Positions 2,947 through 6,804 of a stretch of 26,240 nucleotides of DNA are shown here, one piece after another. The position numbers and the translations under genes were made by a program. The notes below the pieces were generated by a model that did not search any database, had not been told where the DNA came from, and saw nothing but the letters and a program-made list of their open reading frames with translations. Positions within the stretch are counted from its first letter, which is position 1; the number at the start of each line of letters is the position of its first letter. The DNA comes from a virus: positions 1 to 26,240 of the IMG/VR virus record IMGVR_UViG_3300007539_000171; one strand, 5' to 3'.

Positions 2947-3125
2947 TCGTCGTCGAGGGCTTCGAGTTGTTTGACGACTTCCTTGGCGGCTTCCTCGGTG
3001 TCGTAATTGCCGACGATGGAGGCGTTGCCTTCCCTGTCCGTTCCGATTACTTGGTGCAGGGTGCGCTCTGCCTCGGTGCCGTTCTCCGCGATGTTGCGGA
3101 CGGTTGTGTTGATGGTGTACTTCAT
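2943..3125 (-). CDS. small hypothetical protein between terminase subunits
   Basis: A 60-residue acidic protein, MKYTINTTVRNIAENGTEAE at the start and EAAKEVVKQLEALDDE at the end, with alternating beta and alpha character. The ATG at 3125 overlaps the small terminase stop (ATGA), and its own stop overlaps the GTG of the large terminase, so it is wedged between the two subunits. Earlier in-frame starts are possible but would break the coupling pattern. It could be an accessory packaging factor; this is inferred from position only. Confidence 0.75.
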   Translation of the reverse strand: MKYTINTTVRNIAENGTEAERTLHQVIGTDREGNASIVGNYDTEEAAKEVVKQLEALDDE

Positions 3126-3484
3126 GTCGTTGTTGAGTTGTCGTTTCCAAACCATGAGAGCGGCTTCTTCTCGGCCACTTCAATCTCTTGCCTCTCCACG
3201 TACCCGCGTCCTTTGCCCTTGGTCTTGAGGAAGAAAATGGTGGCGGCGGGGTTGCCCTCCTTGATGAGTTTGTGAAGGTGGCTCTCGGCAAAGTCGAGCG
3301 TCCGCCCTTCGATGGCTTTCACCTTGTCGGCGTAGTCGCTGTCTTTCTTGAGCCAGTCGTAGTGGGTGGACCGATTGATGCCGACCGCGTTGCAAGCTGT
3401 CGTCACGATGCCGAGCGACCGTTCGAGTGCTTCAAGCATAGCCTCTTTTTTGGTGTCGGTTTTGGTGGTTTTTAGTGCTTCCAT
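3122..3484 (-). CDS. terS: terminase small subunit-like, HTH protein
   Basis: A 120-residue protein with an N-terminal helix-turn-helix: a SLGIVTTACNAVGINRSTHY stretch at about residues 23-42, followed by DWLKKDSDYADKVKAIE, a pattern seen in small terminase subunits that recognise the packaging site. The C-terminal part (HKLIKEGNPAATIFFLKTKG) is typical of the same group. It stands two genes before the large subunit with ATGA coupling on its 3' side. Alternative: an unrelated transcription regulator. Confidence 0.82.
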   Translation of the reverse strand: MEALKTTKTDTKKEAMLEALERSLGIVTTACNAVGINRSTHYDWLKKDSDYADKVKAIEGRTLDFAESHLHKLIKEGNPAATIFFLKTKGKGRGYVERQEIEVAEKKPLSWFGNDNSTTT

Positions 3485-3485
3485 T

Positions 3486-3968
3486 CTACTTTTTAAATTT
3501 CCAACTCGTTGTGTATCGCGCCGCGCTTGTGCTGTTCTTGTCTTTGGCTGAATGTATTCTTCCGCTTTGTGTGCCTTTTCCCAATCTTCCCATCCGTGTT
3601 AAAACCCAATTGGGATGTTTTTTTAAACCGTGGATGATTGCTGGATGGCTAGTTACTGCTGTAAAATTTTTGCCCAGAACATTGGTGTAATAACGCGCAA
3701 CTTCTGTTCTCAATTTTAATCCTAAACCCAATCCTTGGAAATCGGGCAACATGACCAATCTGTGGCCTTTGAAGGTGTTTTTTACTATGGGATGCGGAAA
3801 AGGAAGGACACTATAAAAACCTGCCAAAGTGCCGTCCACGTATGCAATGAAAACCCGTGCCGCGTTGTTGTGTGAATGGCTCAAATAATGATGTCGAGCA
3901 AACACTTGCCAAACGCTTTTGTCTCTTGTCTCGAATACTTCAAAACGAATGTTTGGTCTTTTTTTTTT
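3486..3968 (-). CDS. GNAT acyltransferase domain, -1 frame partner of the ABC ATPase
   Basis: In the frame one base back from the ATPase, the sequence continues from the A10 run as KRPNIRFEVFETRDKSVWQV and then a complete GNAT domain: FARHHYLSHSHNNAARVFIA, a central beta strand, and the acyl-CoA loop HRLVMLPDFQGLGLG, about 157 residues in all. No good ATG or GTG precedes the conserved start; a GTG at 3905 would delete the first strand. This frame therefore seems to be expressed as an extension of the ATPase (360 residues in total). The HHYLSH and HRLV..PDFQG features resemble Mom-like phage GNAT enzymes that modify DNA bases; this is an inference. Wording of the substrate is not possible from sequence alone. 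Confidence 0.75.
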   Translation of the reverse strand, partial: KKKRPNIRFEVFETRDKSVWQVFARHHYLSHSHNNAARVFIAYVDGTLAGFYSVLPFPHPIVKNTFKGHRLVMLPDFQGLGLGLKLRTEVARYYTNVLGKNFTAVTSHPAIIHGLKKHPNWVLTRMGRLGKGTQSGRIHSAKDKNSTSAARYTTSWKFKK

Positions 3969-4567
3969 GCCCCTTGTCGGAACGTCATGGAATTGGTGTC
4001 AAAAACCCAGTCAGGTAACAACCAATCTTCTACGTCATAATGGCAACCAACGGCAATGAATTGTCTGTCCGCTTTGCGCACTGCTTTTTGTACGGCATAA
4101 GAACCCACTTGAGCAACTTGACGGTCAACGACCGACGTGTACTCGTCAAACACAACCAACGGTTCTTCCGTCAACAAAGCACGCGCCATGTCCACCCGCA
4201 TTTTCTGTCCATTGGATAGCACGGAATATGGTTTTAACCAAGACGGAGGTGAACTAAACCCAACGCTGTTGAGCATACGTGTCACTTCGTCCATTTTAGC
4301 GCGTTTTGGCATATCATCTACAACCGATGCGTGGGTGTATTCAAACCCTTCAAAATATGCGTCAGGAAACAACTCTTTGGCGATTGTGGTTTTTCCGGTG
4401 CCTGATGCTCCGACTATCAATCCAACATTCCATTTTTCTGGCAAGTCAAATTCACCTTGGAACCGTTCAGTCACTTCGGAGGATTGAAGGTCAAATTTGC
4501 CAATGACCGATTGAACCCGAAAAGATTCACCGGCTTTGTGGTGTCTTACAATGTCAAAAGACGGCAT
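3881..4567 (-). CDS. ABC-type ATPase, N-terminal part of a split ABC-GNAT protein
   Basis: Starts MPSFDIVRHHKAGESFRV at 4567, overlapping the ParB-like gene by 22 bases. Walker A GASGTGKT is at residues 53-60, the ABC signature LSNGQ at 117-121, Walker B LVVFDEYTS at 137-145 and the switch histidine at 176 (VGCHYDVE). No membrane segments are present, so it is a soluble ABC ATPase and not a transporter component. After three lysines at 201-203 encoded by the A10 run, the zero frame adds 25 unremarkable residues and stops, while the -1 frame continues into a GNAT domain. Known relatives, as I recall them, carry both domains in one chain. Base composition is visibly AT-richer than in neighbouring genes. 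Confidence 0.85.
   Translation of the reverse strand: MPSFDIVRHHKAGESFRVQSVIGKFDLQSSEVTERFQGEFDLPEKWNVGLIVGASGTGKTTIAKELFPDAYFEGFEYTHASVVDDMPKRAKMDEVTRMLNSVGFSSPPSWLKPYSVLSNGQKMRVDMARALLTEEPLVVFDEYTSVVDRQVAQVGSYAVQKAVRKADRQFIAVGCHYDVEDWLLPDWVFDTNSMTFRQGAKKKDQTFVLKYSRQETKAFGKCLLDIII
3959..3968 (-). promoter_or_regulatory. A10 frameshift site between ATPase and GNAT frames
   Basis: The coding strand reads GCA AAA AAA AAA GAC. A tandem slip on A AAA AAA (3965-3959) moves ribosomes -1 into AGA CCA AAC, the GNAT frame. The run may be a programmed frameshift, a phase-variation tract, an inactivating deletion or a one-base sequencing undercall; the sequence alone cannot separate these. Confidence 0.6.
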
Positions 4568-5049
4568 TCGTACCCTAGTTCTATGATTGCGTTGTATGCT
4601 GCTTCTTGTTCTTCTTCCGACGTGCATACAACTTCCACGCGATACAATTCAACGATGCTTTCTGAAAGGTCTTTTTCCGATGCTTCGTCTAACACAACCG
4701 GAATGTCAACGCCCATGTCTTCCAATTCTTGGGCTTCCCATTCGTTTGCCAATATGTCCATATCCCATTCGCCAAAGCTGACATTGTCACGAATGACGAA
4801 TTGTCCATCTTTGGTTTCGTCCCATTCACGCACGTAAACTGGCACTTCATCCATGCCGGCAATTTGTGCCGCTTGGAGACGCATATTGCCGCCAAGTACG
4901 GTGCCATCTTTGTCAATGACAATAGGCCGAGCTTCCAACATTTCGGGAAATTCCTGCAAACTCTTGACCAGTTTGTTGAGTTGTCCCTTGCGTATGGCGC
5001 GCGGGTTGTTCGGGTTAGCCTTCAGGCTGGCCGTTTTCGCGTATGTCAC
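4546..5049 (-). CDS. ParB/Srx-fold nuclease-like protein
   Basis: From the GTG at 5049 it is 167 residues. It has the ParB N-terminal domain pattern: NPNNPR at residues 12-17, then KLVKSLQEFPEML, RPIVIDKDG and the phosphate-binding-type GGNMRLQAAQIAG at about 53-65. There is no ParB helix-turn-helix or dimerisation domain, so it is the stand-alone form common in phages, where it may act as a nuclease or CTPase-like DNA-binding module. ATG starts at 5079 and 5112 are possible but increase the overlap with the upstream gene; 5049 matches overlaps seen elsewhere. It directly precedes the ABC-GNAT gene, a pairing that suggests joint action on DNA. Confidence 0.85.
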   Translation of the reverse strand: MTYAKTASLKANPNNPRAIRKGQLNKLVKSLQEFPEMLEARPIVIDKDGTVLGGNMRLQAAQIAGMDEVPVYVREWDETKDGQFVIRDNVSFGEWDMDILANEWEAQELEDMGVDIPVVLDEASEKDLSESIVELYRVEVVCTSEEEQEAAYNAIIELGYECRLLTL

Positions 5050-5260
5050 GGGCCGTGTTGATGATGGTTTCAAGGGCATTGTAGAAGTTTTGGTCGGCAA
5101 CAGCAAAGTCAATCATAATGGCCCACGATGTTGAATCCATTGTGGCACATTCAAGGTTGGCAGTGTCGTCTCCGTTGTTTTTGGATGTAAAAAGTACCCA
5201 GTCGTCACATTGACCGAGCAGGCGCTTGGCTTTGCGGAAGGTAAGAGGTTTGTTTGTCAT
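5015..5260 (-). CDS. hypothetical protein, 81 residues
   Basis: Begins MTNKPLTFRKAKRLLGQCDD and ends IRENGQPEG. It has a basic N-terminal helix, then a probable alpha/beta core with WVLFTSKNNGDD and SWAIMIDFAVADQNFY. Two cysteines (residues 18 and 38) are not arranged as a zinc site. Its ATG overlaps the DnaA-like gene stop (ATGA) and its end overlaps the ParB-like gene, so it belongs to the replication operon. I do not recognise it. Confidence 0.75.
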   Translation of the reverse strand: MTNKPLTFRKAKRLLGQCDDWVLFTSKNNGDDTANLECATMDSTSWAIMIDFAVADQNFYNALETIINTARDIRENGQPEG

Positions 5261-5613
5261 GCGGACAGAAATTCGTTGTATTTGCGGCTCATGTCCTCCT
5301 CGGTTTCAATTAACCAAAACAAGGAGCGCACATGATGGACGGCTGTGGCGTGGTCGCGGTTCATAACTTGACCGATGGCCTTGTAGGTCCATCCTTGGTC
5401 GCGCAGAAAGTACGACACCATTTTCCGGGCGTCTACCAATGGGCGAAGGCGCACGGGGCTCACAATTTGTTCCCATGTAAGACCGAGGCGTGTGACGCCA
5501 CGCTGGGCGCGCTGAAGGGCTTCGTCCTCTGTCATTCTGTACCCGCCCTCATGGGCAAGCGTACCAACGGCGAGATAAAAGGATTCACTTGGGATGTTGT
5601 CGGTTGCTTTCAT
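5257..5613 (-). CDS. stand-alone DnaA domain IV-like DNA-binding protein
   Basis: A 118-residue protein whose residues 60-98 match the DnaA box-binding domain IV: VDARKMVSYFLRDQG, then WTYKAIGQVMNRDHATAVHH with the DnaA signature DHATAVHH at 88-95. There is no AAA+ domain, so it cannot itself open an origin. In established families such proteins bind DnaA boxes; here it may recruit host replication to the phage origin or compete with host DnaA. It overlaps the cysteine-rich gene upstream by 29 bases and is ATGA-coupled to the next gene. Confidence 0.9.
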   Translation of the reverse strand: MKATDNIPSESFYLAVGTLAHEGGYRMTEDEALQRAQRGVTRLGLTWEQIVSPVRLRPLVDARKMVSYFLRDQGWTYKAIGQVMNRDHATAVHHVRSLFWLIETEEDMSRKYNEFLSA

Positions 5614-5992
5614 TGATGAGCCTTTTTAGGGTCTTGAGCATTTTGCGATTGCACCCCCCGCATGAGGTGGCTTGTTCATTGGTGCCGAAGATACGGTTGT
5701 ATAGGTCCGCAAGGTCTTGGTCAGTTAATGACCTGACGTCGTTGTCCACCGTGTCAAGGAATGTCCTGACCTCGGCGAGCTGTTCGCCTGTGATAACGGC
5801 CTCCCATTTGCCAAGGGGACACTCGGCCCATTTGAGTCGTGTTTTTGTCGGCATATGGCACCCGCAGAGCTTGGAGTCGGTGAACGCCTCGGTGACAAGC
5901 GGCCCGCAACTTTGGGTCGCCTCGACAAAGTGTTCACACCCTCGGCAGGTGTTCAGCCTATTTGCCCTTGTTTGTGCGCTGACGATGAACAT
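5585..5992 (-). CDS. cysteine-rich, probable zinc-binding protein
   Basis: A 135-residue protein with cysteines at residues 16, 19, 29, 43, 45 and 58, plus a second CGGC pair at 111-114. The first group (CRGC, then C, CGC, C) looks like a zinc ribbon or treble-clef knuckle; the second, followed by KMLKTLKRLI, may form part of another site. A helical linker separates them. The gene starts inside the end of the sigma-like gene (35-base overlap). Nucleic-acid binding is plausible but not shown. Confidence 0.75.
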   Translation of the reverse strand: MFIVSAQTRANRLNTCRGCEHFVEATQSCGPLVTEAFTDSKLCGCHMPTKTRLKWAECPLGKWEAVITGEQLAEVRTFLDTVDNDVRSLTDQDLADLYNRIFGTNEQATSCGGCNRKMLKTLKRLINESNRQHPK

Positions 5993-6449
5993 GGCGGAGT
6001 TTGGTTTTGCTTCGGTGGAGCGATTGGTATAGCGTGGTTGCAGGGATGCCGGATTCCCTTGCTACTTGTCGGAGGTTGTACCCGTCGAGGTAGAGGTTGA
6101 GGACCGTCCGGTCAAACCATGCGAGGTGACGGGTTAAAATTAGCGCGTTCTCGGCCTCAAAAGGGTCGCGGGTAGGGTCAGGGTTCCCCAGTTCTATTTG
6201 AGGGGCGTCTACATACGTGAAAAGCCGTTTGAAGGCTCCCCGCGTTGACTCTATCCACATGGCCCGGCGGAAGTACGCCGCGTATTTGTCAATCGGTCGG
6301 CCGGTGCTTGCGAGCGCGTCGATGCATCGGAGGTACACGTTGTGCACGAGGTCACGGCCGTCAGGGTGAAACGACTGGGCCGAGGCCACAAGGTCGTCGT
6401 AGTTCTTGACGAACCACGCCTCAAATTCCCTTCGACGAGCGGAGTTCAT
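5958..6449 (-). CDS. sigma-70-like transcription factor
   Basis: A 163-residue protein from MNSARRREFEAWFVKNYDDL. Residues about 10-70 resemble sigma region 2 (FHPDGRDLVHNVYLRCIDAL, then YFRRAMWIESTRGAF), and residues about 110-155 form a region 4-type helix-turn-helix (NLRQVARESGIPATTLYQSL followed by HRSKTKLRHV). The size is close to ECF sigma factors. It may direct host RNA polymerase to late phage promoters, or bind DNA without polymerase. A longer reading from 6644 overlaps NinG and has off-frame composition. Confidence 0.75.
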   Translation of the reverse strand: MNSARRREFEAWFVKNYDDLVASAQSFHPDGRDLVHNVYLRCIDALASTGRPIDKYAAYFRRAMWIESTRGAFKRLFTYVDAPQIELGNPDPTRDPFEAENALILTRHLAWFDRTVLNLYLDGYNLRQVARESGIPATTLYQSLHRSKTKLRHVHRQRTNKGK

Positions 6450-6804
6450 CCACGAGGCGTTTGTAGTGGTGATACATTTGCTCAAGCTCGGCGCGTGTCC
6501 ACTTGCGCGTTTGCTTGGACAATCGAAACAACTCCTCCGCCTTACCCTCGCCAAACTGGGCGTCCAAGTTGCGAGCGAACAGGAACTGCTCACCCGACCG
6601 GAACCCGTTGCACCGTTTACATTGGAACATGACATTGTCCTCATGCCACCGGGTGGACATACAGGCCCGGCTCATGAAGTGCCCCGCGTCTACCTCTGAC
6701 CAATGCCGACGGGAGCCGCAGGTATAGCACTCCCCGTGGCCGGTGTCGTCGGTGGCGCGGAGCCGCACATATTGGGAGAAGACCGCGTCAACCTTTTTCA
6801 CCAT
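6421..6804 (-). CDS. ninG: NinG-like recombination/nuclease protein
   Basis: A 127-residue protein with CYTCG at 26-30, a DAGHFMSR histidine motif at 39-46 and CKRCNGFRSG at 62-71: the paired zinc cysteines and HNH-like layout of lambda NinG. The C-terminal part is helical (TRAELEQMYHHYKRLVDELR). NinG proteins act with phage recombination functions, probably as nucleases on branched DNA. The ATG at 6804 gives a 17-base overlap with the upstream gene; the in-frame extension from 7065 lies inside that gene and is basic, low-quality sequence. Confidence 0.88.
   Translation of the reverse strand: MVKKVDAVFSQYVRLRATDDTGHGECYTCGSRRHWSEVDAGHFMSRACMSTRWHEDNVMFQCKRCNGFRSGEQFLFARNLDAQFGEGKAEELFRLSKQTRKWTRAELEQMYHHYKRLVDELRSSKGI

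Follow-up and report, generated by a model that had tools for sequence, protein, structure and literature searches.

A 2013 paper on base modification is reportedly the origin of the prediction that ABC-GNAT proteins acylate DNA. As stated in a passage of a later article, a GNAT coupled to an ABC ATPase was predicted to put an uncharacterised acyl modification on a DNA base (Viruses 2021 13:63, PMC7824862, citing ref. 136). ParB-fold proteins are partners of DNA-modification systems, namely DpdB in Dpd and DndB in Dnd (PMC12839542). A published report of recoding in ABC-GNAT genes was not found. To our knowledge, conserved programmed frameshifts are rare outside prfB, dnaX, IS elements, and phage tail chaperones. 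The +1 site of prfB consists of a Shine-Dalgarno (SD) sequence, 3 nt, and CTTT (PMC12421855), and A_AAA_AAA/G is a common −1 motif of bacterial IS elements (PMC4066793). The ABC-GNAT case was not found in the searched text of three recoding catalogues (PMC3711429, PMC5009743, PMC10885494).

Here we analysed a phage cassette in the window, i.e., the whole 26,240-nt stretch of IMG/VR virus record IMGVR_UViG_3300007539_000171 (positions 1 to 26,240). Comparison with relatives indicates that the ABC-GNAT genes of this family, which follow a ParB partner and stand beside the terminase, very probably give rise to two proteins. This conserved recoding is the main feature of the locus and was missed in the initial annotation.

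Results

Organization of the cassette

ParB, ABC, and GNAT all lie on the minus strand of the window (Table 1). The initial annotation had described a stand-alone ParB-fold protein directly before the ABC gene, and both the Pfam match and the overlap of the two genes bear this out. The ParB_N score of this protein was 30.2 bits against the curated cut-off of 26.3, and its ORF extends from stop to stop over 4546-5112 with TTG 5112 as an alternative start. The identical ParB/ABC overlap was found in the annotated phages P335, Vinitor-27, GBSInt8.1, and MismyG, and this arrangement likely couples the translation of the two genes. Upstream of the cassette, 5257-5613 (minus strand) encodes a small protein with a DnaA C-terminal HTH domain (Bac_DnaA_C, 4.9e-9). 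The C-terminal part of an ORF at 5958-6644 (minus strand) looks sigma-70-type-like by eye (region 2/4-like).

Table 1 Features of the cassette and its surroundings in the window.
Feature	Position	Strand	Properties and evidence
ParB/Srx N-terminal-domain protein	4546..5079	-	177 aa from best ATG 5079; Pfam ParB_N 4.8e-7
Overlap of ParB stop and ABC start	4546..4567	-	22 nt; sequence
Predicted frame-0 product, ABC ATPase with out-of-frame tail of ~26 aa	3881..4567	-	228 aa; ends ..LLDIII*; ABC profile matches
Putative −1 recoding site, slippery A10 run	3959..3968	-	GCA AAA AAA AAA GAC; in-phase A_AAA_AAA heptamers
Putative dual-coding overlap of frame-0 ABC tail and −1-frame GNAT start	3881..3958	-	Frame inspection; tail open in −1-class relatives
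GNAT, −1 frame	3486..3968	-	KKKRPNIRFEVF..HHYLSH..HRLVMLPDFQGLGLG..; phrog_11143, Acetyltransf_1; AlphaFold2 fold; Foldseek
Terminase small subunit	3122..3484	-	PHROG terminase small subunit matches, best 1.7e-7; directly downstream of GNAT
ORF with terminase large subunit, Bacteroidota-phage type	1789..3291	-	Terminase_3 9.2e-22; best tblastn matches Phocaeicola phages

The ABC ORF starts at ATG 4567, and its frame-0 stop is at 3881-3883. It matched ABC_tran of Pfam (3.4e-10) and positions 3-205 of the phrog_11143 profile (1.3e-61), and the GNAT ORF matched Acetyltransf_1 of Pfam (9.3e-7) and positions 217-348 of the same profile (2.3e-24). PHROG 11143, whose function is unknown, covers ABC and GNAT with one profile that is here divided between two frames; thus, the family has ABC and GNAT as one protein, and the window has them in two frames. 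The initial annotation had linked the ABC ATPase to the GNAT. This linkage holds for the presence of both domains and for the single PHROG, but the two do not form one ORF: the GNAT lies in the −1 frame past the A10 run, from which it reads KKKRPNIRFEVFETRDKSVWQVFARHHYLSH.. up to a stop codon at 3486-3488. Slippage would join it to ABC in a protein of 360 aa in total.

The ABC part carries GASGTGKTT, LSNGQ, VVFDEYTS, VVDR, and CHYD, the motif set expected of an ABC ATPase (Walker A, LSGGQ-like signature, Walker B, D-loop, and H-loop), and the Walker, D-loop, and H-loop columns were invariant or nearly so among relatives. The GNAT part carries QGLGLG, the acyl-CoA-binding motif (Q/R-x-x-G-x-G/A) of the GNAT superfamily. 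Its AlphaFold2 model shows a GNAT fold (pLDDT 87.8), for which Foldseek returned generic GNATs; among the matches listed, RimI, SpeG, and similar N-acetyltransferases were the closest, and the fold fits protein and small-molecule acetyltransferases equally well. In the model of a fused relative (L006), ABC and GNAT were obtained with a pLDDT of 91 and a dip at the slip-site linker. A sequence search of solved structures and a Foldseek search with the whole model gave, among the matches listed, only ABC transporter NBDs and no ABC-GNAT structure.

We also searched for known defence systems using PADLOC, and none was accepted: the ABC part matched mad3 (1.1e-10) in the signature/Walker B stretch only, and the ParB part matched a type II methyltransferase model via the ParB domain of that model. 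In GenBank, ParB is misnamed adenine-specific methyltransferase or DNA modification methylase and ABC is misnamed iron siderophore transporter (L083, L085, L084, and L096), and the entire ABC-GNAT locus of Pseudoalteromonas phage SL25 is without annotation.

Conservation of the frame break

The window junction is GGGGC-A10-GACC. Breaks at A10 runs are a classic error site, and the frame break could be explained by a homopolymer sequencing or assembly error or by a decaying pseudogene; the +1 break of one relative with an A11 run (L016) may well be such an error. However, A10-GACC and the same shift were shared by L003, whose protein is 100% identical, and by L004, which is 84% identical over the ABC ORF, and both were also kept in contigs at 60-70% identity. 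The run was kept as A9 or A10 in L003, L004, L005, L051, L060-L063, and L168. With a pN of 0.34 and a pS of 0.75 between the window and L004, the GNAT frame is, on this comparison, under purifying selection, which also argues against an error or a pseudogene.

In a profile survey of 221 loci, two of which belong to the window and some of which are near-duplicates, 192 were fused in frame, 26 were split by −1, 2 by +1, and 1 otherwise. The two +1 cases were an A11 variant of an in-frame gene and a gene broken elsewhere. All 21 distinct related split genes, most of them well below 70% identity, were shifted by −1 at the same place. This −1 class includes the isolate phages Lactococcus P335, Oenococcus Vinitor-27, Streptococcus MismyG, and GBSInt8.1, whose annotations treat the parts as separate genes. 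An in-phase X_XXY_YYZ heptamer was present within the 18 codons scanned at the junction in 17 of the 21 loci; the expectation drawn from their ABC parts was 2.5. The heptamers were A_AAA_AAA, T_TTT_TTT, A_AAG_GGC, G_GGA_AAG, and C_CCC_CCT. The other four loci (P335 and streptococcal phages) share AG_GTT_TTT, known as the slip sequence of arterivirus nsp2. The identical place and direction of the break in isolate genomes, its occurrence at non-homopolymer heptamers (A_AAG_GGC and G_GGA_AAG), and the conserved open tail and tail stop in genes without any break (see below) all speak against an error. At the level of sequence comparison, the error or pseudogene reading is largely refuted, and we leave it scarcely any probability.

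Changes of A-run length in the genome could instead toggle GNAT on and off, and the A10 to A11 change in L016 would switch that in-frame gene off. Against such phase variation, the genomic state is 'off' in every −1-class member across deep divergence, and most family members use non-homopolymer sites. Moreover, A9 was offset by a substitution with the phase kept: between L061 (A9) and L063 (A10), which are identical over 480 nt past the run, a T/A substitution lengthens the run and leaves the phase unchanged. We regard phase variation as very improbable. In L016, an A10-class gene, TAG stands directly after the A11 run; this junction may represent a sequencing error, a phase variant, or a slippage intermediate.

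A separate GNAT could also be produced by internal initiation or by termination-reinitiation, as between ParB and ABC. In the window, a GTG lies at 3905, giving a 25-nt overlap with the tail stop, and coupling is frequent among ABC gene pairs (PMC3711429). However, a start at this GTG would delete the first strand of the GNAT model (residues 9-14) and the invariant P5 and W20, and this GTG is missing from L005, L060, and L061. Since separate initiation would also leave the prfB-like sites and the open tails of single-frame genes unexplained, it appears very improbable.

Slippage at the A10 run is the reading that we prefer for the window. The 97 nt of RNA 3′ of the slip site gave a folding z of −1.41, little better than shuffles, suggesting no clear stimulator structure there. 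An AAGGGG sequence is found immediately 5′ of the run, with a spacing that is atypical of −1 sites. Slippage at A9-A11 runs would fit a ribosomal or a transcriptional origin alike.

Recoding signals and selection in single-frame relatives

Most relatives encode ABC-GNAT in one frame and carry a recoding signal at the same junction. RGRGG-N3-STTY ([A/G]G[A/G]GG-N3-[C/G]TT-[C/T]) was found at the junction of 84 of the 102 single-frame genes dereplicated at 80% identity, whereas 1.3 were expected when each gene was recoded synonymously according to its codon usage; elsewhere in the same 102 genes, it occurred once. SD-N3-CTT-type sites are carried by Planctomycetes, Actinobacteria, Endozoicomonas, Gordonia phages, and others, and this prfB-like site is absent from the window junction. 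In the A10 class, which consists mostly of metagenome contigs, CAA AAA AAA AAT is invariant and R/K-P codons come next. From AT-rich codon use alone, A9+ would be expected in 9.2 of the 15 genes of this class, which explains the run in part. SD-N3-GAA-AGG (or close) takes the place of SD-N3-CTT in L118, L120, L128, L150, L160, and L189, whose tail frame is open; this subgroup may possibly represent a third kind of +1 site. At the junctions of L084 and L200, CTT AGG C, identical to the yeast Ty1 +1 shift heptamer, follows an SD-like AGGGGG or GGAGG.

Between the slip site and the HHYL codons, all 117 genes had an open +1 tail frame, compared with 78 expected from synonymous shuffling (15/15 in the A10 class, where 6.6 were expected, and 102/102 in the others, where 71.5 were expected), while the other frame, used as a control, was open in 41 genes against 46 expected and was thus at expectation. 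In 110 of the 117 genes, against 38 expected, the stop of the tail frame fell within or just after the codons for HHYL of the GNAT (95/102 against 31.3 ± 4.3, and 15/15 against 6.7 in the A10 class). In the −1 class, the tail was open in 21/21 loci (11.9 expected) and stopped at HHYL in 21/21 (12.4 expected). Synonymous-codon conservation peaked at the slip site and the HHYL stop; in the A10 class, the slip site again formed a peak, and the other was at the start of the gene, in the overlap with ParB. In a hold-out set of 17 genes fetched once the rules were fixed, the motif was present in 16, and both the open tail and the stop in all 17; the control frame was open in 9. Two translated products best account for this selection, which acts on both frames whether or not a gene carries a break. 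From these patterns, we have high confidence that the recoded gene yields ABC with a tail and ABC-GNAT.

Relation of the signal to Shine-Dalgarno use

The window phage looks Bacteroidota-associated, its terminase being closest to those of Phocaeicola phages in tblastn. An SD sequence was found at 1 of the 30 window starts checked (1/27 in a second count). Flavobacterium, which rarely uses SD, showed very low frameshifting at the SD-dependent prfB site (PMC12421855). The scarcity of SD in a Bacteroidota-like phage may explain why A-run slippage replaces the SD-dependent +1 site, and an SD-independent slip would suit low-SD hosts. Crude SD counts agreed with this as a trend only: SD sequences were counted for 10-20% of the genes of the A-run groups, against 34% for the SD +1 group and 59% for the Firmicute-like −1 group. 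A survey of Bacteroidota (~790 genome searches) gave few family members, among them two new −1 loci (L277 and L279: A_AAA_AAG and A_AAA_AAA). L276, also from Bacteroidota, uses an SD-CTT site and is an exception within the phylum; therefore, the correlation between signal and host SD use is suggestive, not strict.

Gene neighbourhood and possible substrate

The gene pair noted in the initial annotation recurs in other genomes: the gene immediately upstream of ABC-GNAT is ParB-like in 124 of the 138 relatives that no contig end truncates. Downstream of ABC-GNAT, packaging genes (terminases) predominate, and in some relatives, a class III CoA-transferase, a formyltransferase, or an aspartate decarboxylase follows; these neighbours fit acyl chemistry. 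Class III CoA-transferase-like genes (~225 aa) made up 8 of 86 downstream ORFs, in actinobacterial-type phage contigs (including L098:4442-5113, L110:4445-5134, L112:2996-3679, and L076:3973-4641), and might supply an acyl donor. A Formyl_trans_N gene stands directly after ABC-GNAT in Pseudomonas phage Komp_PAO1_1, a Porphyromonas phage, and a viral contig (L092:5119-5736, L094:5095-5568, and L126:4116-4763). In phage Jace, an aspartate 1-decarboxylase gene in the same place (L089:5074-5499, E=2e-33) would provide beta-alanine.

HHYLSH and HRLVMLPDFQGLGLG, which the initial annotation had compared with Mom-type enzymes, are indeed present in the window GNAT, but HHYLS and HRLV..PDxQGxGxG are features of the ABC-GNAT family and not of Mom. 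Mom and the window GNAT are both phage GNAT-fold proteins, and HHYLS shows a short visual likeness to KHYSR. However, the window GNAT had no match to the Pfam Mom family PF25680 at E≤1, at which the control, Mu Mom, matched with 2.4e-75; the hhalign probability between the GNAT profile and Mu-type Mom was 0.4%; and no Mom was among the structural neighbours listed by Foldseek in PDB or BFVD. Mom membership was thus rejected at the level of sequence profiles and of the structural neighbours listed, and it is highly improbable that the window GNAT is a true Mom.

The broader proposal of the initial annotation, in which ParB and the ATPase-GNAT form a module acylating DNA, agrees with the prediction in the ABC-GNAT passage of PMC7824862 and fails in its Mom-type part. 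We give DNA about an even chance of being the GNAT substrate. Alternatively, the recoded ABC-GNAT may acylate a protein, such as host RNA polymerase or a ribosomal protein, or a small molecule, and serve as a host-takeover or counter-defence enzyme. The closeness of RimI, SpeG, and similar N-acetyltransferases accords with such a substrate, as does the phage GNAT Rac, which modifies host RNA polymerase (cited in a passage of PMC7824862). The near-constant ParB partner (124/138), the ParB-fold partners known in Dpd and Dnd (DpdB and DndB, PMC12839542), and the position at packaging genes speak against it. We consider a non-DNA substrate a substantial but minority possibility.

Discussion

In the mechanism that we propose for the window, with DNA as the substrate, ribosomes remaining in frame 0 would make the ABC ATPase with its short tail (228 aa). 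A fraction of ribosomes would slip by −1 on A_AAA_AAA, or RNA polymerase would add an A in the A10 run, giving the 360-aa ABC-GNAT. Relatives would reach the same two products via other slippery heptamers, and in single-frame relatives, a prfB-like SD-N3-CTT +1 site or an in-frame A10 run would divert some ribosomes into the tail frame. Comparative genomics strongly supports this recoding step as a whole. Because ABC domains act as dimers, the product ratio may set the share of dimers with no, one, or two GNAT domains. The ParB protein may place the complex on phage DNA late in infection, a timing suggested by the adjoining terminase genes. There, the GNAT would use a CoA-bound acyl group to modify a DNA base, as others predicted earlier, and this acylation would probably protect the DNA before packaging. 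For this whole explanation, i.e., a two-gene cassette, recoding into two proteins, mixed dimers, and DNA-base acylation, we estimate a probability of roughly two in three. A stronger joint reading, to which we give somewhat less than an even chance, is an obligatory two-product design throughout a bacteria-wide family of phage enzymes, which uses unrelated recoding signals by lineage (+1 sites like that of prfB, five or more kinds of −1 heptamer, and, where the hosts are low in SD use, slippage on A10) and, with ParB, forms an ATP-driven machine adding a new acyl DNA mark.

ABC-GNAT recoding appears to occur in many phyla, in phage and prophage genes that number in the hundreds. Lineages would reach the same product pair by opposite routes, which suggests that the ratio of ABC to ABC-GNAT matters. 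A neglected and only predicted DNA-modification family thereby becomes testable, since one can measure the two products, the ratio between them, and what changes once the frame is fixed. The gene set also offers a natural experiment, in which recoding signals are swapped as ribosomes rely less on SD pairing. In addition, annotation can be corrected, since databases split, mis-frame, or misname ABC-GNAT genes as iron siderophore transporter or adenine methyltransferase.

Among the closest described systems is the predicted ABC-GNAT DNA-modification system of Tenacibaculum phage pT24 (PHROG 11143), which has the same domain order and is itself among the relatives (L096). The passage of PMC7824862 on ABC-GNAT treats the domains as one coupled protein and contains no frameshifting or two-product design. 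Mu Mom (PF25680) is likewise a phage GNAT-fold enzyme, for an acyl-type DNA modification as proposed here, but it has no ABC domain, ParB partner, or recoding, follows com in Mu, and shows no detectable profile similarity. Dpd (DpdA/DpdB) and Dnd also place ParB-fold proteins beside nucleic-acid-modifying enzymes (PMC12839542); this likeness is at the level of the ParB fold, and their deazaguanine and phosphorothioate chemistries, respectively, differ from the proposed acylation. The −1 frameshifts of IS elements on A_AAA_AAG/A use an A-run slippery site as in the window (PMC4066793). With prfB (release factor 2), the relatives share a purine-rich SD, 3 nt, and CTT followed by a pyrimidine; in prfB, however, a stop codon ends frame 0 at the site and the long protein comes from the shift, whereas in ABC-GNAT relatives, frame 0 is usually long and the shift would lead to the short one. 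In dnaX, an A-run slippery site lets a single ATPase gene yield a longer and a shorter protein, and these tau and gamma products set the make-up of the clamp loader. The shift produces the short form in dnaX, whereas in the window it would produce the long form.
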